This document shows positions 30,154 through 43,004 of a stretch of DNA of 43,004 nucleotides, in pieces. The DNA is from a virus, in the IMG/VR virus record IMGVR_UViG_3300025311_000367, positions 1 through 43,004 of that record; one strand, written 5' to 3'. Each line of letters opens with the position of its first letter. Position 1 is the first letter of the stretch. A program made the translations under genes and the position numbers. Below the pieces are notes generated by a model, which saw only the letters and a list, made by a program, of their open reading frames with translations, made no database searches and was not told where the DNA came from.

Positions 30154-30816
30154 ATGGACATAAACCAGCTACGCATAGATGCCTTGAAACGCCTGATCGG
30201 CGGCCGAAAGACGAAAGACTTCGCCGATCAGCACGACCTCGACGCTTCTTATCTATCCCAGTTGCTCAACGGCCACAGGCCCATGGGCGAGAAAGCGGCG
30301 CGCAACCTAGAAGCAAAAGCAGGCCTGCCTGCCGGCTATCTAACAGCCCCATCAGCGGCTGGCGAACTAGCTACCCATGCAATTGCAGAAACCAGGCTAG
30401 AGCCAGGCCCCGACCTGACCCGTCCATTCAACCGGACAAAAATTCTAGGGATAGCTCAATTGGGCCCAGAAGGATATTGGGATGCCCTGGCCGTCGCAGA
30501 CGGCTGGCTCGATGTACCCACCACAGATCCGGACGCCTATTCTCTGCGCGTGAAAGGCGACTCTATGGCCCCAGCCATCCGCAGCGGCTGGGTGGTGTGG
30601 TGCGAGCCCAACCACCAGCTAATCCCCGGTGAGTACGTGATGGTGCGCTGCGTAGATGGCCAGAGCATGGTCAAGGAACTGCTCTACGAGAACGCCGAAG
30701 AAGTCAGCCTGATGGCCGTGAACGATGGCTATGGCCGGCTGACTATTACCCGCAGCGATATCGAACAGATCCACTACGTGGGCGGCATCGTGCCACCCAG
30801 CAAGATCAAGTACTAA
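30154..30816 (+). CDS. CI-like repressor with S24 peptidase domain
   Basis: 220 aa from ATG 30154. HTH at about 18-60 (TKDFADQHDLDASYLSQLLNGHRPMGEKAARNLE). C-terminal LexA/S24 fold: VKGDSMAP with nucleophile Ser137 and GQSMVKEL with Lys174, the Ser-Lys dyad of RecA-stimulated autocleavage. Maintains lysogeny by binding the TTAGCA-NN-TGCTAA sites on both sides of the gene and should be inactivated in the SOS response. Confidence 0.9.
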   Translation: MDINQLRIDALKRLIGGRKTKDFADQHDLDASYLSQLLNGHRPMGEKAARNLEAKAGLPAGYLTAPSAAGELATHAIAETRLEPGPDLTRPFNRTKILGIAQLGPEGYWDALAVADGWLDVPTTDPDAYSLRVKGDSMAPAIRSGWVVWCEPNHQLIPGEYVMVRCVDGQSMVKELLYENAEEVSLMAVNDGYGRLTITRSDIEQIHYVGGIVPPSKIKY

Positions 30817-34963: not shown

Positions 34964-35178
34964 TGGACGCCGCCACCGCTACACCCAACGACCTGCTGCG
35001 CACCCGCGCAGCACACATGGACAACCTGCAACGCCTGCGGCGTTACCTGCCAATCCTCAAGCCGCAGGCCGCAGCGCGCGCAGAAAACACCATGGCCAAC
35101 CTCATGCAGCAGGTCTACGTCATCGACGAGCAGCTGCGCATCAAAGGCAAGCAACCTGCCCAGTGGGGTGAAGCATGA
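34963..35178 (+). CDS. Small helical hypothetical protein (71 aa)
   Basis: MDAATATPNDLLRTRAAHMD then NLQRLRRYLPILKPQAAARAENTMANLMQQVYVI, basic and helical. Overlaps the upstream stop (TAATG) and the downstream start (ATGA). No family recognised. Confidence 0.6.
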   Translation: MDAATATPNDLLRTRAAHMDNLQRLRRYLPILKPQAAARAENTMANLMQQVYVIDEQLRIKGKQPAQWGEA

Positions 35179-35723
35179 CCTGGATACTCACCCGCTCCGG
35201 CAAGCGCATGGATCTGTTCGATCCAAAGCCAGCAATGGTCGACCCGGCCGATATCGCCCACGCCCTCAGCATGCTCTGCCGCTTCAACGGCCACACCAGC
35301 AGCTTCTACTCGGTCGCTCAGCACAGTTGCATCGTCGCCGACCTAGTACCGCACGAACTGGCGCTGACAGCACTGCTGCACGACGCCACCGAGGCCTATG
35401 TGGGCGACATGGTGCGCCCGCTCAAGCAGCACCCGAGCATGCACGACTACCGCGAGATCGAGTACGGCGTCTGGATAGCCATCTGCGACCGTTTCGCCAT
35501 CGACTACACGCTGCCCCAGGCCGTGCACGAGGCGGACATGATTGCCTTGGCCACCGAGCGCCGCGACCTGATGCCCGACCACCCCGAAGTATGGGAATGC
35601 CTGCGAGGCGTTGAGCCGCGGCCTGAGCCAATCAAGCCCCTGCCACCAAGCGAAGCATCGATTCACTACTTCAACCGTTTGCTGCAACTGATGGCTACCA
35701 CCCATCGCGGCGCAGCAGCCTAA
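35175..35723 (+). CDS. HD-domain phosphohydrolase, YfdR-like
   Basis: 182 aa. Metal-site residues of the HD superfamily: SVAQHS with His50, LLHDATEAYVGD with His69-Asp70, and a later Asp (EADMIALATERRDL). Related to E. coli YfdR and YfbR-type nucleotidases, which hydrolyse nucleoside phosphates. A role in nucleotide pool control during replication is plausible. Overlaps the preceding gene by ATGA. Confidence 0.8.
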   Translation: MTWILTRSGKRMDLFDPKPAMVDPADIAHALSMLCRFNGHTSSFYSVAQHSCIVADLVPHELALTALLHDATEAYVGDMVRPLKQHPSMHDYREIEYGVWIAICDRFAIDYTLPQAVHEADMIALATERRDLMPDHPEVWECLRGVEPRPEPIKPLPPSEASIHYFNRLLQLMATTHRGAAA

Positions 35724-35751: not shown

Positions 35752-36363
35752 ATGACCACTATCAACCGCACCACTCTCCCCGCCATCGGCAGCCCCTTCG
35801 AGGGCGGCTTCTACATGGGGCTCTACCTGCTCGCCGGCCAGCTGCAGGCGCTGATCCGCGCACCGGCCGCAGAAGGCTTCAATGCCCCGCAACCCTGGGG
35901 CCAATGCGGCACCATGATTGCCGGTGCTAACAGCTTCAACGATGGCCAGGCCAACACACGCGCCATGGCCGAGGCCGAATGCCCACACGCCACCTGGGCG
36001 CTGAGCCTGTCGATAGGCGGCCATCAGGACTGGTTCATCCCATCCCGCGACGAAACCGAAATCGTCTACCGCGTTTGCAAGCCAACAACTGAAGAGAACT
36101 ACTGCAGCTTCCGCGACGGCGACAACCCCAGCAGCGTTCCGGCTGGCTACCCCTACACAGCAGAGTCACCGGCCCAGAGCAGCATCGCAGCCTTCTGCCA
36201 GGGCGGCGCAGAAGCGCTGGAGGATTGCAGCTACTGGACCAGCACGCAGAACGGCCCGTACGGCGCGTGGATTCAGTACTTCGACGGTGGCACCCAGAAC
36301 GGCGTAGGCAAGGTCAACGCCCGGCCCGCTTTCGCCGTCCGCAGAATCACCGTCACCCCTTAA
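35752..36363 (+). CDS. DGR target protein 1 (C-type-lectin-like, DUF1566-like)
   Basis: 203 aa. Leader AAGAGGCACAGCAC before ATG 35752. The body is the formylglycine/C-type-lectin-like fold often called DUF1566: FYMGLYLLAGQLQALI, ECPHATWALSLSIGGHQDWFIPSRDE, CSYWTSTQ and the C-terminal ARPAFAVRRI. The final 38 residues (from Ser-Tyr-Trp on) contain the variable repeat at residues 165-198. No signal peptide or membrane segment. By DGR analogy (Mtd, TvpA) this is a ligand-binding surface made diverse by mutagenic retrohoming; its ligand is unknown. Paralogue of the next gene. Confidence 0.88.
   Translation: MTTINRTTLPAIGSPFEGGFYMGLYLLAGQLQALIRAPAAEGFNAPQPWGQCGTMIAGANSFNDGQANTRAMAEAECPHATWALSLSIGGHQDWFIPSRDETEIVYRVCKPTTEENYCSFRDGDNPSSVPAGYPYTAESPAQSSIAAFCQGGAEALEDCSYWTSTQNGPYGAWIQYFDGGTQNGVGKVNARPAFAVRRITVTP
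36245..36344 (+). repeat. DGR variable repeat 1 (VR1)
   Basis: 100 nt aligned without gaps to the template repeat (37635-37734, offset 1390). Eleven differences, all at template adenines (to G, T or C); the remaining 89 positions are identical, including GCCCGGCCCGCTTTCGCC and GTCCGCAG at the 3' end. The base just after is A where the template has C. Affected codons include the template AAC, GAA, GAC and GAT codons. Confidence 0.92.
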
Positions 36364-36383
36364 CCACTTCCAGGCTTTACCGC

Positions 36384-36400
36384 CGCGCGCGCAGCGCGCG
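36384..36400. repeat. GC hairpin downstream of VR1
   Basis: CGCGCGC (36384-36390), loop GCA, GCGCGCG (36394-36400), 40 nt after the end of VR1 and beyond the stop codon. A matching hairpin follows VR2. Such structures next to the variable repeat are needed for efficient homing in the Bordetella phage DGR. Confidence 0.65.
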
Positions 36401-36428
36401 TTCGGCTCCAAATTTTGAGGACATGACC

Positions 36429-37052
36429 ATGCAACAGATCACCCTGGAAGTAGGCGGCACCACGCTCCGCACCCAAAACGCCCTGCTCGCACGCCACGTG
36501 CTCGAGCAGGAAGCGGGCCTGGCGATGGTCGGCACCGCGTTCATCACCGGCGAACTCACCAGCACCCTGACACCGCCCGCCATCGGGCAGCACTGGCACG
36601 GCCAGGGCGGCACCTATGTCGGCGTGATGCGCGGCGTTGACGGCCAGCCGGACTACCACCTGATCGCCCCCAAGCACGCGCAAATCGCCGAAATCACCTA
36701 CGGCGCACGCGGTAAGAAGATCGAGGGTGCTGGCTGCGCGCGTGACGGTTTGGCCAACACCAGCGCCCTGCTCGCCTCCGGCACCGAACACCCAGCGGCG
36801 CAGTGGGCAGCCGACCAAGAAGCCGACGGCCACCGCGACCTGTACCTCCCCGCCCGCGCCGAGGCGTTCCTCTGCTGGGCCAACATACCCGAGCAGTTCA
36901 CAGACAAAGGCTGGCGGCTCACCAGCACGCAGGGCGGCCCGTACGACGCGTGGGTTCAGCACTTCGGCGATGGCTACCAGTACGGCGGAGTCAAGGTCAC
37001 CGCCCGGCCCGCTTTCGCCGTCCGCAGAATCCTTATCACTTCACCAATTTAA
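36429..37052 (+). CDS. DGR target protein 2 (C-type-lectin-like)
   Basis: 207 aa from ATG 36429 (GAGG 8 nt upstream; ATG 36423 would sit too close to it). MQQITLEVGGTTLRTQNALL is a distinct N-terminus, then PAIGQHWHGQGGTYVGVMRGVDGQPDYHLIAPKHA, DGHRDLYLPARAEAFLCWANIPEQF and GWRLTSTQ, the same lectin-like scaffold as target 1. Variable repeat at residues 167-200. No signal peptide. Two targets fed by one template are seen in some DGRs; here they may be separate binding proteins or partners of one complex. Confidence 0.87.
   Translation: MQQITLEVGGTTLRTQNALLARHVLEQEAGLAMVGTAFITGELTSTLTPPAIGQHWHGQGGTYVGVMRGVDGQPDYHLIAPKHAQIAEITYGARGKKIEGAGCARDGLANTSALLASGTEHPAAQWAADQEADGHRDLYLPARAEAFLCWANIPEQFTDKGWRLTSTQGGPYDAWVQHFGDGYQYGGVKVTARPAFAVRRILITSPI
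36928..37027 (+). repeat. DGR variable repeat 2 (VR2)
   Basis: 100 nt aligned without gaps to the template repeat (offset 707). Fifteen differences, all at template adenines, none at other bases. VR1 and VR2 differ from each other at 13 positions, so each was diversified on its own. Both continue with AGAATC after the shared GTCCGCAG core where the template has AGCATC. Confidence 0.92.
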
Positions 37053-37062
37053 GCCCTTAACA

Positions 37063-37081
37063 CCGCGCGCGTAGCGCGCGG
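37063..37081. repeat. GC hairpin downstream of VR2
   Basis: CCGCGCGC (37063-37070), loop GTA, GCGCGCGG (37074-37081): 8 bp plus a flanking A-T pair, 36 nt after VR2. Same core as the hairpin behind VR1 but a different loop (GTA against GCA). Absent in this form next to the template. Confidence 0.65.
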
Positions 37082-37099
37082 TTAGCGAGTTTTCTCAGC

Positions 37100-37462
37100 A
37101 TGGCCATAGCCCAACACCTGCCGATCTATAAGCGCTCTGGCGACCTCGCCAAGCTCGTGGCGGACCTTGTTAAAAACTGGAGGCGCGACTTTAAACGCAC
37201 CCTCGGTGACAAGGTGCTCAACGAATGCTTTGACGTGTCGATCCTGATCTTTCGCGCCAACACCGCGAGCGGCCAGCAGCGAGTCGCCTTCATTCAGCAA
37301 ACCCTGGAACGCATCCAGGTTGTAGAGCTGATGCTGCGCCTGGCCGCCGACCTGCACCTGGTAACCCCCGAGCAACATGGGTCCGCCATCAAGATCACAG
37401 ACGAAATAGGCCGGCAGGCCACAGGGTGGAAACGAAATGCCGCCGCATCGCCAGCCGTATGA
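37100..37462 (+). CDS. avd: DGR accessory protein Avd
   Basis: 120 aa, helical, basic: MAIAQHLPIYKRSGDLAKLVADLVKNWRRDFKRTLGDKVLNECFDV and ERIQVVELMLRLAADLHLVT. This is the Avd four-helix bundle (S23-like), which forms a pentamer and binds the DGR reverse transcriptase and template RNA. Lies between target 2 and the template repeat as in Bordetella phage BPP-1. Only weak ribosome-site signal upstream, so translation may be coupled to the target gene or driven from a weak site. Confidence 0.85.
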   Translation: MAIAQHLPIYKRSGDLAKLVADLVKNWRRDFKRTLGDKVLNECFDVSILIFRANTASGQQRVAFIQQTLERIQVVELMLRLAADLHLVTPEQHGSAIKITDEIGRQATGWKRNAAASPAV

Positions 37463-37634
37463 GCGCCACGGCCCTCATACCATAGCGATTTTGATTCTGG
37501 TCGTGCCGCTGGCTCACAAGGCCACCGCTATGCGCACCAGAGGCACCACCTGGCATTGTCCCGGCAGGCCTCGCGCAGTTCCGCTACTGATCGGCCTCGG
37601 CCTTTGGCAGCGTGACGTAAATAGCACGACCTGG

Positions 37635-37734
37635 CGCAGAACGGCCCGAACAACGCGTGGATTCAGAACTTCGACGATGGCAACCAGAACAACGAAGACA
37701 AGGACAACGCCCGGCCCGCTTTCGCCGTCCGCAG
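37635..37734 (+). repeat. DGR template repeat (TR)
   Basis: 100 nt source copy for both variable repeats, lying between avd and the RT. The 72 nt from 37637 hold 28 adenines, arranged as many AAC codons (eight in the target frame), which give amino-acid change without stop codons when A is replaced. The 3' part from 37709 (GCCCGGCCCGCTTTCGCC...) is invariant and ends AGC where the VRs have AGA, the IMH*/IMH difference that directs one-way transfer. Confidence 0.92.
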
Positions 37735-37784
37735 CATCGAACGGTATTACTGGCGGCCATGCTGATTTTTCTATTGAGCAACTC

Positions 37785-38855
37785 ATGCGGGCCTACTACG
37801 ACTGCCGGCGCAACAAACGCAGCAGCGGGTCAGCCCTGGCATTCGAGTTCCAGCTGGAGCGCAACATCATGCAACTGCTTAGCGAGCTGAACAGCGGCAC
37901 CTATCAGCCCGGCCCCTCGATCTGCTTTGTGGTTACCCACCCAAAGCCGCGCGAAGTGTGGGCCGCTGACTTCCGTGACCGCATCGTCCACCACATGCTC
38001 TACAACCACATCGGCGCGCGCATCGAGCGTAGCTTTATCGCTGATTCCTGCGCCTGCATCGAGGGCCGCGGCACCCTGTACGCCGCGCAACGCCTGGAAC
38101 AAAAAGTGCGCAGCATCACCCAGAACTGGAGCCGCCCAGCCCACTACCTCAAGTGCGACTTGGCCAACTTCTTTGTCAGCATCGACAAGCACGTGCTCGC
38201 CCAGCAGCTAACTGCCCGCATACCCGAGGCCAATTGGCGCGCTCTGGCCCTGCTGATCCTCTGGCACGACCCGCGTGACAACTACCAGCTGCGCAGCTCA
38301 CCGCGCCTGCTCAACCGCGTACCCCAGCACAAACGCCTGACCTGCCAGCCAGCACACCTCGGCCTGCCGATTGGCAACCTAAGCAGCCAGTTCTTCGCAA
38401 ACGTCTACCTCGATGCCCTGGACCAGTTCGCCAAGCACACCCTGCAGGCCAAGCATTACATCCGCTATGTGGATGACTTCGTGCTGCTGCACCACAGCCC
38501 ACAACAGCTCAACACCTGGCACGCCCAGATAGAAACCTTCCTGGCCGAGCGCCTGCACGCCCGCCTCAACCCCAGCAAAACCATTCTGCAACCCGTCAGC
38601 CGCGGCGTGGACTTCGTCGGCCAGGTCATCAAACCCTGGCACCGCACCACCCGCCGCAAAACCGTAGCCCACGCCATCAAGCGCATCAGTTCGGTGCCGC
38701 TCCCGGCACTGCGCGAAACCGCCAACAGCTACTTCGGCCTGCTCACCCAAGCCACCCACAGCCATACCGACCGCCGCAAAGTGGCCAAGGCCATCCTGCT
38801 GCGCGGCAAGGCCGTGAATGCAGGGCTGACCAAGACGTACAAGGGGGCCGCATGA
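37785..38855 (+). CDS. DGR reverse transcriptase
   Basis: 356 aa from ATG 37785; the frame is open upstream through the template (to 37437), so an earlier non-ATG start (ATT 37773 or 37746) that adds FSIEQL is possible and would fit the family N-terminus better. RT motifs: EVWAADFRDRIVHHMLYN, YLKCDLANFFVSIDKH with the first catalytic Asp, GLPIGNLSSQFFANVYLDALD (the DGR/group II-type motif 4) and YVDD at residues 228-231 with YIRYVDDFVLL. Its stop overlaps the methyltransferase start by ATGA. Copies template RNA with adenine-specific errors. Confidence 0.93.
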   Translation: MRAYYDCRRNKRSSGSALAFEFQLERNIMQLLSELNSGTYQPGPSICFVVTHPKPREVWAADFRDRIVHHMLYNHIGARIERSFIADSCACIEGRGTLYAAQRLEQKVRSITQNWSRPAHYLKCDLANFFVSIDKHVLAQQLTARIPEANWRALALLILWHDPRDNYQLRSSPRLLNRVPQHKRLTCQPAHLGLPIGNLSSQFFANVYLDALDQFAKHTLQAKHYIRYVDDFVLLHHSPQQLNTWHAQIETFLAERLHARLNPSKTILQPVSRGVDFVGQVIKPWHRTTRRKTVAHAIKRISSVPLPALRETANSYFGLLTQATHSHTDRRKVAKAILLRGKAVNAGLTKTYKGAA

Positions 38856-40594
38856 CCGCTTTCAACGATCATCTAAAGCATGCTGCACAGCAAGCCCTAC
38901 CCCTCAACCGCGAACTGTACGTTGACCTGTTCGCCGGCGCTGGCGGCGCAAGCAGTGGCGGGGCCCGGGTCTACCGCGACCCGGACGTGGCCATCAACCA
39001 CAACCCCATCGCCATCGCCGTGCACCGCGCCAACCACCCCAGCACCCGCCACTACATCAGCGACGTGTTCGAGGTGGACCCACTCGAAGCAACAGGCGGG
39101 CAGCCGGTAGGCATCTTGTGGGCCTCACCGGACTGCCGCCACTTCAGCCGCGCCAAGGGTGCCGCCCCGCGCAGCGCGCGAGTGCGCATGCTGGCCTGGG
39201 TGATTGTGCATTGGGTTTACGCCACCCGCCCGCGCCTGCTCTTTATGGAGAACGTGCCGGAGTTCATGACCTGGGGCCCGCTCGACGACGCTGGCCACCC
39301 TATCAAGGCCCTGGCTGGCCGCACCTTCGCTGCGTTCGTTGCCTGCCTCAGCACCGGCCTGACCGAAGACCACCCCGACTTCCCAGAAATCATGGATGCG
39401 GTCGGCCAATGGGTGCCCAAAGCCGCCCTGGTACGCGGCCTGGGCGTTAACTTCGAGCACCGTATTCGCCGCGCAGCTAACGCTGGCGTGCCCACTATCC
39501 GCACACGCTGGTTCGGTATAGGCCGCACCGATCGCAGGCCCGTGGTCTGGCCGGAGCCCAGCCACCACGAACACCCCAAGCGCAACCAGCAGCCTTGGCG
39601 GCAAGCCGCCGAGTGCATCGACTTCAGCGACCTCGGTACATCGATCATTGATGAGCGACTGGTGGAGAACACCAACGTCCGGGTAGCGAAAGGCTTCTGG
39701 AGGCACACCGTCATGGCAGAGTCGCCCTTTTGCGTCCCGCTGGATGACCAGGCGCTGGCGGCAGCGCATCTCACCGAGTTCGCCAATGCCAGCAGCCAAC
39801 GCACCTTCGCCGCAGACGAGCCACTGCGCACCCAGGTGGCGCAGGTAAAAGGCGGACACTTCGCCATGGCCAGCGCGCACCTGGCGAAACCTCAGCGCCA
39901 GTTGACCGCAGCCATGGTTACCCTGCGCAAAGGCAGCGTCGGCTCAGCCCTGTACGCGCCGCTGGGCACAGCCACCTGCAGCAGCGGGCACCACGCCCTG
40001 GCTGCCTGCCACTTCGAACAGGCCAACGGTGGGTTCTACCAAGGCGACGGGCGCGCTGCATCGGCCCCAGTCAGCACCATTTGCGGCAAGAGCAACCAGC
40101 GCCTGGCCACCGCCTACCTGATCAAATACTACGGCACCGGCGGCCAGTGGCAGAGCTGCAACGAACCTGCGCACACCCTACCAACCAAGGCCCGTCTTGG
40201 CCTGGTAACCGTGCACCAGGTGCCGGCCGACCTACTGCCACCCAACCTGATGGCGAAAGCCAAGCTCTGCGCCCACTTCCTCCACAAGTACCTGCCGGAG
40301 CACTTCCCTGAGCCGGTAGACCTGGTGGTGCTGGGCGACTACGTGCTGGTGGATATCAGCCTACGCATGCTCAAGCCCCAGGAATTGAAGCTCGCCCAGG
40401 GCTTTGCACCCGACTACATCGTCGACCGCGGCCTTTTCCTCAACGAAGCCACCGGCCAGGCCGAATGGAAGGCCCTCACCATCGCCCAGCAGATCAAGTT
40501 GATCGGCAACAGCGTCTGCCCGGGCGAGGCCGAAGCGCTGATCGCCGCGAACGACGCAGACATGATCGAGCTGTACCGCAAGGAGGCAGCATGA
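38852..40594 (+). CDS. DNA cytosine-5 methyltransferase
   Basis: 580 aa. SAM motif I DLFAGAGGAS (25-34); catalytic Cys in SPDCRHFSRAKG (92-95), a variant of the usual PPC motif; ENVPEF (133-138, motif VI); RRAANAGVPTIRTRWFGIG (motif VIII); GNSVCPGEA near the C-terminus (motif X). No restriction enzyme gene beside it, so it is probably an orphan methylase protecting phage DNA or marking the genome. Translation overlaps the RT stop, so its level is tied to RT expression. Confidence 0.9.
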   Translation: MTAFNDHLKHAAQQALPLNRELYVDLFAGAGGASSGGARVYRDPDVAINHNPIAIAVHRANHPSTRHYISDVFEVDPLEATGGQPVGILWASPDCRHFSRAKGAAPRSARVRMLAWVIVHWVYATRPRLLFMENVPEFMTWGPLDDAGHPIKALAGRTFAAFVACLSTGLTEDHPDFPEIMDAVGQWVPKAALVRGLGVNFEHRIRRAANAGVPTIRTRWFGIGRTDRRPVVWPEPSHHEHPKRNQQPWRQAAECIDFSDLGTSIIDERLVENTNVRVAKGFWRHTVMAESPFCVPLDDQALAAAHLTEFANASSQRTFAADEPLRTQVAQVKGGHFAMASAHLAKPQRQLTAAMVTLRKGSVGSALYAPLGTATCSSGHHALAACHFEQANGGFYQGDGRAASAPVSTICGKSNQRLATAYLIKYYGTGGQWQSCNEPAHTLPTKARLGLVTVHQVPADLLPPNLMAKAKLCAHFLHKYLPEHFPEPVDLVVLGDYVLVDISLRMLKPQELKLAQGFAPDYIVDRGLFLNEATGQAEWKALTIAQQIKLIGNSVCPGEAEALIAANDADMIELYRKEAA

Positions 40595-41190: not shown

Positions 41191-42813
41191 TCAGCCTGTA
41201 ATGTCTTCACTTGACACCCAGGCCCCGCTACGTCGATCAACCCGCAGTAGCAGCGGCCGCCCGGCCTTCGGCACCAACATCACATCAATGCTCTTGCCCT
41301 GCCGCCCTTCCTCACCAATGCCACGCATATAAATGACGATGCGCTCGAAGGTATCCATCACCAGCTGCCGCACCTGCTCCCGCGCGGCATAATCATTGGC
41401 CTCAACTTTGCTGGCGAGCGCTGCCCAACGCGCCGCCTGCTCCGGCTGCACATTTGAAGAGCGGGCGGCCAGCAAGCGTTCAAGCTGCTGCACTTCACCC
41501 TGCGCTTCGCCCAACTGCTGCTCCACTTCACGGGCCCGCCGCACAAACGCCAACGGCGCAGCACCACTGTCATCGGCCATCACCGCATCCGTAATTTTGC
41601 CCAGCTGACGCTCAAGCTCCGTGGCAGTTCGCCGCGCGGTCGCCAGCTGCTCGCGGAGGCCCCTGCCATCATCTGGCGTCTCATGCAGTCGCTGCAGGTT
41701 GATTTGCTCACCGCAGTAATTGAGTATCGCCCGCTCGATGGGCACCACGCTGCAGCTACCACCCGCCGCGCAACCACCATTTTTGCTGTACGACACACAA
41801 TGCAATCGCCGGTGGCCATCCAACAGGCTGCCGTCCGCTTTAGCTCGGCCCATAAGATTCTGAGCCACCAACGCTGTGCCGCAATACCCGCAGAACGTCC
41901 GGCCGATGCCGGTGATAATCCCAGGAATCTCGCCAGCGCCACGCCGCCGGTGCCGCTGCCCGGCCAGCAACTGCAGGTCGTCGTATTCGGCATCAGTCAG
42001 CAGCGCAGGGTAGTAACCCTCAAGTAAATAGTCCTCGCCACCGACACTGATCCGCTTGGCCCCGCGCAATGCCGGCAGCTTAATCAGCCTGTAAATCTGC
42101 TGGCCGGCGATGCCCCAGTCGGTCAGCGCATAACCCTCATCGTGCATCAGCTTTGATGCCCTGCCAGCACCAAGCCCCTGCTTGTACAGCTCAAGCGCCC
42201 TGCGCACCGCCGTTACACGCTCTGGCACAAGCCGCCATTCGCTGCCCGTCCATTCCAGCCACGCCGGATCGTTGCCATTGCGCACCAGGCCGCGATAAGT
42301 GCCAGCCTGCCAGCCCTCGCACAGCCGCCGAATGCTCGCCTTAACCCGCTTGCTCTTGGTGTCGGATTCTTCGTGCGCACGGATCATCACCAGCAGGCTA
42401 TACACGAGGTCCATCGGCTGTGCCTTCAGACCGGCACGGTTGTACTCCCTACCGTCGCTGGCTGTCACCACCGTGATGCCGCCATTGATGATCTGCGCCA
42501 ACTGCGCTTGCGCCTGGATGGGCTCAGCACGGCTCAAACGATCAAGCCCCTCAACAATCAGCACAGACCCATCAGGAATGCGGCCCTCGCTCACCGCCAG
42601 CAGAAATGCACCCAGCGCCCCCTGCTTGACGTGCTGCTGGTGGTAAGCAGACAGCCCCTCATCGCGCAGCGACAACGACTCATCCAACACCAACCCCCGC
42701 GCGGCCGCCCACGTCTGCGCGTAAAGCAACTGACGATCTACACTGCTACCCGTCGACTGCCGTGGATCAGAAAACCGCAGATAGCTGTATACTCGCGCGC
42801 TATTTTTTGTCAT
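41191..42813 (-). CDS. Large serine recombinase (phage integrase)
   Basis: 540 aa. Catalytic domain: YLRFSDPRQ with nucleophile Ser15, VDRQ with Arg27, and [13 protein letters not shown] (about 87-98); long E helix [16 protein letters not shown]. Recombinase domain, zinc ribbon [10 protein letters not shown]...[12 protein letters not shown], then coiled coil (LEQQLGKI..., [19 protein letters not shown]). Integrates and excises the prophage between attP and attB. It is divergent from rimO with only 23 bp between start codons, so one attachment site must lie at or near its 5' end. Confidence 0.93.
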
Positions 42814-42836: not shown

Positions 42837-43004
42837 ATGTCGAAGAAAGCAGGAAGTATAGGGTTTATATCCCTCGGGTGCCCCAAGGCTTTGGTCGATT
42901 CCGAACGTATCCTGACCCAGTTGCGTATGGAAGGTTATGAAGTGGTGCCGACCTATCAGGACGCCGATGTGGTGGTGGTCAATACCTGTGGTTTTATCGA
43001 CAGC
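42837..43004 (+). CDS. rimO: RimO, ribosomal protein S12 methylthiotransferase (5' part, partial)
   Basis: First 56 residues, running off the window: [41 protein letters not shown] and [15 protein letters not shown]. The Cys residues of GCPK and NTCGF are two of the three N-terminal UPF0004 iron-sulfur ligands. RimO is a radical-SAM enzyme that methylthiolates an Asp of S12. This is host DNA and identifies the genus as Pseudomonas. Its native upstream region has been displaced by the prophage. Confidence 0.95.

Follow-up and report, generated by a model that had tools for sequence, protein, structure and literature searches.

A Complete Two-Target Retroelement

The window analysed here, virus record IMGVR_UViG_3300025311_000367 over its full 43,004 nucleotides, in all likelihood carries an intact, evolutionarily active two-target diversity-generating retroelement (DGR) of a temperate Pseudomonas phage. 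The complete cassette occupies positions 35752–38855 of the + strand, in the order target 1, target 2, avd, template repeat (TR), and reverse transcriptase (RT), which is the order of Bordetella phage BPP-1. A preliminary description had listed these parts and this order and had judged the parts to be intact; each was recovered in its place, with the ORFs and motifs of the window unbroken.

Target 1, which we refer to as type B (35752–36363, 203 aa), encodes a stand-alone, Lcl_C/DUF1566-like protein with a predicted C-type-lectin fold, and its final codons hold the 100-nt core of the first variable repeat (VR1, 36245–36344). Target 2, of type A (36423–37052), also has a predicted lectin fold; it starts at an ATG at either 36423 or 36429, encodes 207–209 aa, and contains the 100-nt core of VR2 at its 3′ end (36928–37027). 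The gene of the accessory variability determinant, avd (37100–37462, 120 aa), the TR core (37635–37734), and the RT gene (37785–38855, 356 aa) follow. A fusion of the TR to the RT frame, suggested by a 472-aa ORF from 37437, was rejected because the TR is read there in a different frame and relatives begin their RT near the position that matches 37785.

Judged by their sequences, the RT and Avd belong to DGR families. The RT matched Pfam RVT_1 (E 1.6e-15) and PHROG 1423 (E 3.9e-113), its best PDB match was 8ub7 (“Reverse transcriptase”, E 1.3e-39), which we take to be the BPP-1 RT, and BPP-1 brt was matched by tblastn at 31% identity. Its YVDD and IGNLSSQ motifs are invariant in the RT family alignment and agree with the DGR patterns YxDD and [LIV]GxxxSQ, while the residues aligned with KPR74 and I181 of 8ub7 are conserved. 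The alignment thus revealed none of the inactivating changes that had been named in advance as evidence against the system. Avd matched Pfam bAvd above the cutoff (E 2e-10) and PHROG 3206, “Avd protein of DGR” (E 3.7e-26); a search of solved structures with the Avd sequence gave a chance match only (E 0.11).

Adenine-Specific Divergence of the Repeats

A repeat finder independently detected a three-copy repeat family at 36238, 36921, and 37628. Within the 37635–37734 core, the mismatches fell exclusively at TR adenines, 12/12 in VR1 and 16/16 in VR2, even though adenines make up only ~28% of the repeat (31/111 bases); on both sides of the core, similarity ends or non-adenine differences start. 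The expectation that two VRs of about 100 nt match a single TR was therefore confirmed, as was the AAC-rich character of the TR: in the target reading frame AAC codons are abundant, and a single codon (AAG) is able to mutate to a stop.

We compared the window with about 90 relatives. The adenine-only TR/VR pattern was present in every relative examined, and a chance repeat was rejected on this ground. Over 188 VRs, 2454/2482 core substitutions were at adenines, a figure that is partly ascertained, as the scan demanded few non-adenine mismatches; the comparisons within the window and within individual relatives are free of this effect. Among these 188 VRs there were 176 different sequences; the TR showed 0–4 changes in the closest group. 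Variable columns inside the VR tip amounted to 16/25 in type B and 14/22 in type A, the targets being entirely different within the VR and nearly identical elsewhere. Comparison of VRs among relatives, proposed beforehand as a check, thus uncovered the adenine-specific variation whose absence would have spoken against activity. Since the TR is nearly constant while the VRs differ at adenines, these sequences indicate that the DGR lineage is active in nature, and we infer the same for the copy in the window.

A decayed or inactive remnant is a very improbable description of the window. In its favour, the type B gene of one relative (L011) is interrupted by a stop codon, and some relatives have lost the RT, Avd, and TR; in the window, however, ORFs and motifs are all intact, and VR/TR divergence is confined to adenines.

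The 3′ Element and Its Hairpins

The adenine-poor 3′ stretch is identical in the TR and both VRs, in agreement with the invariant 3′ cores noted earlier. It is followed at 37735 by a C in the TR and an A in both VRs, and this C-versus-A difference, of the IMH/IMH* type, was likewise found in relatives, with the TR on the IMH* side. A GC-rich hairpin lies 3′ of each VR, with a 7-bp stem and a GCA triloop after VR1 (36384–36400) and a 9-bp stem and a GTA triloop after VR2 (37062–37082); no hairpin was found behind the window TR. In a shuffle test the VR2 hairpin gave a z of −2.8, and the VR1 hairpin by itself was not significant (z −0.95), its region being GC-rich. Across the relatives, hairpins were found behind 129/188 VRs, as compared to 0/95 TRs and 48/475 random stretches. 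Hairpins of phage DGRs are reported to be GC-rich, 7–10 bp long, located behind the VR and not the TR, and closed by a 4-nt 5′-GRNA loop (PMC3240598). Both window stems fit this length; their loops are 3-nt GNA rather than 4-nt GRNA.

By analogy with BPP-1 biochemistry, an RNA spanning the TR would be reverse-transcribed by an RT–Avd complex with errors at adenines, and the cDNA would replace VR1 and VR2 through homing at the common 3′ element and the downstream hairpin. The TR, being without a hairpin, would stay unchanged. The products would be two lectin-fold proteins, one of type B and one of type A, with randomised ligand-binding tips.

Two Ancient Target Types Kept as a Pair

Both target proteins are predicted to adopt a C-type-lectin fold, as the preliminary description had anticipated for these genes with 3′-terminal VRs. 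Target 1 matched Pfam Lcl_C with an E of 4.6e-6, under the curated cutoff, and its AF2 model (pLDDT 93) had as best PDB match 8q4e, the C-terminal domain of Legionella Lcl (Z 12.6). The model of target 2 (pLDDT 84), a protein assigned to PHROG 4245, matched 8q4e over residues 43–201 (Z 12.7); its N-terminus forms a β-hairpin plus a helix. Mtd and TvpA were absent among the matches listed by Foldseek and VIA, from which we draw no conclusion. In neither window target was a convincing hydrophobic segment of a membrane or secreted protein found (maximal 19-residue Kyte–Doolittle values 1.15 and 1.01), and PADLOC matched neither to known defence systems. The PADLOC matches of the window RT were generic RT matches.

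The targets had been described as a duplicated gene. They are indeed paralogues, but this wording understates their divergence: they are ~33% identical and represent old separate lineages, with 72/73 type A proteins in one fully supported split. A recent tandem duplication of one target was rejected on account of this depth. At least two VRs were present in 84/85 loci with at least 3.5 kb of upstream sequence, and A and B occurred together in 90 loci, A preceding B in 47 of them and following it in 43; their order changed about 5–6 times on the RT tree. On this sequence evidence, A and B are two ancient paralogue types, almost always kept as a pair. As they have been kept together across the whole RT clade despite the order switches, they are probably two parts of one system, and we consider it rather likely from the anatomy that they act as partners, for example as a hetero-oligomer or as two ligand-binding subunits.

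It is also quite conceivable that the two targets are independent and that a second copy simply makes a useful binder twice as likely, with no physical partnership. Multiple targets are found in further DGRs of phages and cells, where they are interpreted as duplications (PMC3521204, PMC11792537, PMC10743442); a third target is present at a few loci, and PAN70 has type A only. If the second copy were redundant, however, AA or BB combinations and repeated losses would be expected rather than A with B in changing order, and the A+B pair, with adenine-scarred VRs, is retained in some phages that lack the RT, such as Aurca01.

The branch is common. An alignment-profile scan found at least 565 loci in IMG/VR, where a scan with the window RT alone had returned only two, and the branch was present in 23/299 sampled genomes of the genus of the Pseudomonas metagenome-assembled genome (MAG) that contains the closest RT.

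Genomic Context and Possible Role

The phage was expected to be temperate and to infect Pseudomonas; the former is supported, and Pseudomonas is its probable host. The window encodes a CI-like repressor (30154–30816) and a serine-type integrase (41191–42690), and a host-like rimO start can be read at its right end; no direct repeat (att core) was found between the two window ends. The closest RT, 97% identical, lies in the Pseudomonas MAG, and the nearest phages infect Pseudomonas.

Across the relatives, the cassette lies in an early/integration module, next to integrase, repressor, recombination, and cytosine-methyltransferase genes and not to tail genes. In 41/43 large contigs its transcription points to the nearer contig end. 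Given this location, synthesis of the targets probably takes place in early infection or in the lysogenic state.

Phage DGRs are usually viewed as host-tropism switches on tail fibres, and both targets could be tail-tip adhesins of the virion encoded apart from the tail genes, with the DGR switching host tropism. We regard this as doubtful. It is favoured by the tail protein Mtd of BPP-1, diversified by the sole phage DGR with proven function, by target 2 structural neighbours in BFVD, which include predicted tail-fibre and S74-peptidase proteins with the same fold, and by clades 1, 4, and 6 of viral DGRs, most targets of which are predicted tail proteins (PMC8144416). On the other hand, the targets are stand-alone proteins of ~200 aa that lack a domain of the fibre or tail-attachment kind, they belong to a + strand early module opposite a − strand head–tail operon, and no virion Pfam family appeared among the neighbours listed for 26 representative loci. 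With neither tail-gene neighbours nor a fused tail-attachment domain of the Mtd kind, gene context lends no support to a tail-fibre role by analogy with Mtd, and such a role should not be assumed. A non-virion role is, from the anatomy, the likely one; incorporation into the virion would also be compatible with the gene context.

More speculatively, this widespread branch might diversify an obligate A+B hypervariable lectin rather than tail adhesins, produced within the host cell early in infection or in lysogeny and, for example, binding and countering variable proteins of the host or of rival phages; in RT-less phages, a DGR prophage residing in the same cell may diversify the pair in trans. 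As a retroelement the system belongs to a known kind and is to that extent unsurprising, yet the targets of this common branch adjoin genes of integration, repression, recombination, and DNA methylation, and nearly always form a heterotypic pair. Should the two proteins work inside the cell and not on the virion, phages would have in DGRs a general means of evolving binders that act intracellularly or at the envelope. The choice between the two roles is directly testable in isolated phages of P. aeruginosa and P. syringae.

Comparison with Known Systems

Two-target DGRs have been described before, and the window copy is a further member. It shares with BPP-1 (mtd-avd-TR-brt) the gene order, Avd, the RT family, adenine-specific TR/VR changes, a VR at the 3′ end, the C-type-lectin fold, and a hairpin behind the VR. 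It differs in having two targets, both of them small stand-alone proteins encoded in an early/integration module, where BPP-1 has a single tail-fibre target, and in the GNA triloops of its hairpins, where BPP-1 has a 4-nt loop.

One TR also serves two VRs in two lectin-fold targets in gut phages nd4/nd12 with tentaclins (PMC10743442) and in Faecalibacterium Lelie/Lagaffe_CP/CP11 (PMC11792537). There, in contrast, the partners are tail-/Mtd-like or of other topology, and the tentaclin VR is near the N-terminus, whereas the window has C-terminal VRs in both of its targets, the A and B paralogues of a single family. The multi-VR Proteobacterial clade with G2/G4 cassettes (PMC6642488) and the 2-VR DGR of Pseudomonas fluorescens WH6 (PMC3521204) may represent the same lineage as the window, with multiple VRs, Proteobacterial origin, enrichment in Pseudomonas and Burkholderia, and DUF1566-type targets as a common feature; the passages considered make no mention of A/B composition, switching order, or early-module location.

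Pseudomonas phage LPPA56 (OR188718), whose DGR genes are annotated merely as hypothetical proteins, has the same parts in the same order and two VRs with adenine-only changes. Its targets are 65–68%, its Avd 81%, and its RT 75% identical to those of the window, in a different phage backbone and with a different gene downstream of the RT.

Anatomy of the Two-Target DGR

To locate the elements of the diversity-generating retroelement (DGR) in the window, which covers the complete 43,004-nt IMG/VR virus record, ORFs were listed, genes were called by simple codon usage, and repeats were searched for. All parts named in the preliminary description were recovered on the plus strand in the order proposed there. 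They are target 1 (35752-36363), target 2 (36423/36429-37052), avd (37100-37462), the TR core (37635-37734), and RT (37785-38855). The repeat search revealed a 111-nt repeat family with three copies, at the end of target 1, the end of target 2, and in the avd-RT interval; no fourth copy was found across the 43,004-nt record.

Within the 100-nt core, all mismatches to the TR fall at TR adenines, both in VR1 (12/12) and in VR2 (16/16). The adenine-poor 3' part is identical in the TR, VR1, and VR2, so that the 3' cores are indeed invariant, as had been described. The first difference past it (37735, C in the TR versus A in both VRs) is as expected for IMH* versus IMH. The reading frame of the TR is common to both targets; AAC codons are abundant in this frame, in agreement with the AAC-rich TR noted earlier, and only one TR codon (AAG) can mutate to a stop codon. 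Randomization of the TR adenines was computed to yield ~10^16 protein variants per target.

The RT matches RVT_1 and PHROG 1423, with 8ub7 as the best PDB match, and tblastn matched it to BPP-1 brt and further phage DGR RTs. Avd matches Pfam bAvd above the cutoff, and PHROG 3206. PHROG 4245 is matched by both targets, and Pfam Lcl_C, weakly, by target 1. The best structural match of both AlphaFold2 models (pLDDT 93 for target 1 and 84 for target 2) is the C-terminal domain of Legionella Lcl (Z 12.6 and 12.7, respectively), followed by many C-type lectins; the target 2 model has an extra N-terminal beta-hairpin and helix. Hydropathy made no signal peptide or membrane segment evident in either target. 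The DGR of the window is real and intact, and its diversification mechanism is well supported by homology.

Variation among Relatives

An RT profile search of IMG/VR returned at least 565 relatives, 80 of which were kept; RT profile matches were also present in 23 of 299 genomes sampled from the genus to which the closest MAG belongs. Relatives were found in Pseudomonas phages LPPA56, Cruim01, SC_8_H2H8_2017, Haboob, and phPA-G, and outside this group in Burkholderia phage Magia and Shewanella phage QDWS. The complete two-target DGR of LPPA56 (OR188718.1) is annotated merely as hypothetical proteins.

One related locus, L005, is an identical copy. In the rest of the closest group the TR carries 1-4 changes and all VRs are different, at adenines; in the more distant L016 the TR differs more. 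In near-identical prophages, the VR tip holds 16 of the 25 variable amino-acid columns of target 1 and 14 of the 22 of target 2. Distinct VRs make up 176 of the 188 in the clade, and 2454 of 2482 clade-wide substitutions are at A, a figure that is partly ascertained because a pair entered the scan only if it had few non-A mismatches. The comparison of VRs across related loci, which had been suggested as a check of activity, thus revealed adenine-specific variation beside an almost constant TR, and the RT, earlier judged intact, showed no inactivating change when aligned to its family. Together, these observations show that the DGR lineage is active in nature; the window copy is probably active as well.

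Two Paired Target Types

In 85 distinct loci that extend 3.5 kb or more beyond the RT on its upstream side, the number of VRs is exactly two in 80, three in 4, and one in 1. In loci L033, L059, L073, and L097, a third VR-bearing ORF lies ~2-3 kb further upstream, and several more loci carry an additional target gene of type A or B (defined below) 4-6 kb upstream. Types A (as window target 2) and B (as window target 1) were assigned with HMMs from the window targets. Both lie beside the RT in 90 loci, including a few RT-less or near-duplicate ones (86 with RT, 73 dereplicated); A precedes B in 47 of them and follows it in 43. These counts include related loci, which are not independent, and the type assignment is marginal in the most distant members, L024, L025, and L091. 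The order switches ~5-6 times on the RT tree; one of the switches, at L044, results from an extra B gene and could be an artefact of labelling. A quick-method tree of the targets, from which VRs were excluded and in which some long branches were flagged, places 72 of the 73 A proteins in a single, fully supported group. This group and the order switches indicate that the A/B duplication is old and that the two types stayed together while the loci were rearranged, an argument for a joint function. In another locus, the type B target (L011:5318-5929) has a stop at codon 50, outside the VR, in an otherwise intact two-target DGR.

The A+B pair is also present in Aurca01 (L020; 6489, 7177), Medea1 (L021; 6489, 7177), and vB_Pae_U9 (L022; 5761, 6469), at loci without RT, Avd, or TR: tblastn at 1e-20 detected no RT in these phages, and no avd or RT annotation adjoins the pair. 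The VRs of Aurca01 and Medea1 have few non-A and many A mismatches to the Cruim01 TR, and so do those of vB_Pae_U9 to the Haboob TR. Judged by sequence, these genes are orphaned DGR targets, possibly through recent loss of the machinery or with diversification in trans. Aurca01 was isolated on the same host as Cruim01.

Genomic Context

The minus strand of the window carries a head-tail operon (terminase, portal, capsid, major tail, tape measure, and tail protein). The DGR lies within a plus-strand operon that begins at a CI-like repressor (30154) and also holds a DUF2303 gene. Genes for a deoxynucleotide phosphohydrolase (35175-35723) and a C5-cytosine methyltransferase (38852-40594) belong to this operon too and lie ahead of the DGR and behind the RT, respectively. 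In Lodos (L027, 5013-7708), a DGR-less relative, the methyltransferase gene directly follows the phosphohydrolase gene; this junction is a candidate empty site, and the cassette therefore behaves as one unit set between the two genes. A serine-type integrase (41191-42690) faces the DGR operon, and beyond it, before the window ends at 43004, a host rimO-like gene begins. The right prophage junction is upstream of rimO; no att repeat was found in the 43,004-nt record.

In 41 of 43 contigs >35 kb, RT transcription points to the nearer contig end, at a median distance of 5.4 kb. Neighbour ORFs of 26 representative loci match integrases, S24/CI repressors, and C5 and N6/N4 methyltransferases, as well as ERF, RecT, YqaJ/RecE, and DUF2303; the PHROG lists covered the top 25 entries, and no virion family was among the listed Pfam families (the best 25 of 30, and 24 of 24). 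C5-cytosine methyltransferase recurs among the neighbours (8 of 112 ORFs from 15 loci).

Comparison with Known DGRs

GC-rich hairpins lie behind VR1 (36384-36400, 7-bp stem, loop GCA) and VR2 (37062-37082, 9-bp stem, loop GTA); none was found behind the window TR. Across the clade, a stem-loop of 6 bp or more lies behind 129 of 188 VRs, compared with 48 of 475 random stretches and none of the 95 TRs. The window loops are GNA triloops, whereas in phage DGRs the loop consensus is a 4-nt GRNA, according to Guo et al. (PMC3240598).

Multi-VR DGRs are already well documented. Published surveys put them at about a seventh of DGRs, with duplication as the explanation and P. fluorescens WH6 included (PMC3521204), or at 28.6%, Proteobacteria being enriched in a multi-VR clade (PMC6642488); two-target cassettes are cited at 13% (PMC10743442), and Faecalibacterium prophages also have multi-VR DGRs (PMC11792537). 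Viral DGR targets are described mostly as tail proteins, some being without assignment, by Roux et al. (PMC8144416). Among the open-licence papers searched, none was found to describe an obligate A/B pair or to place one in an early module. The window DGR belongs to a known kind of element, of which its branch is a variant distinguished by a conserved heterotypic target pair and an early-module site, and these two features make the branch worth study.
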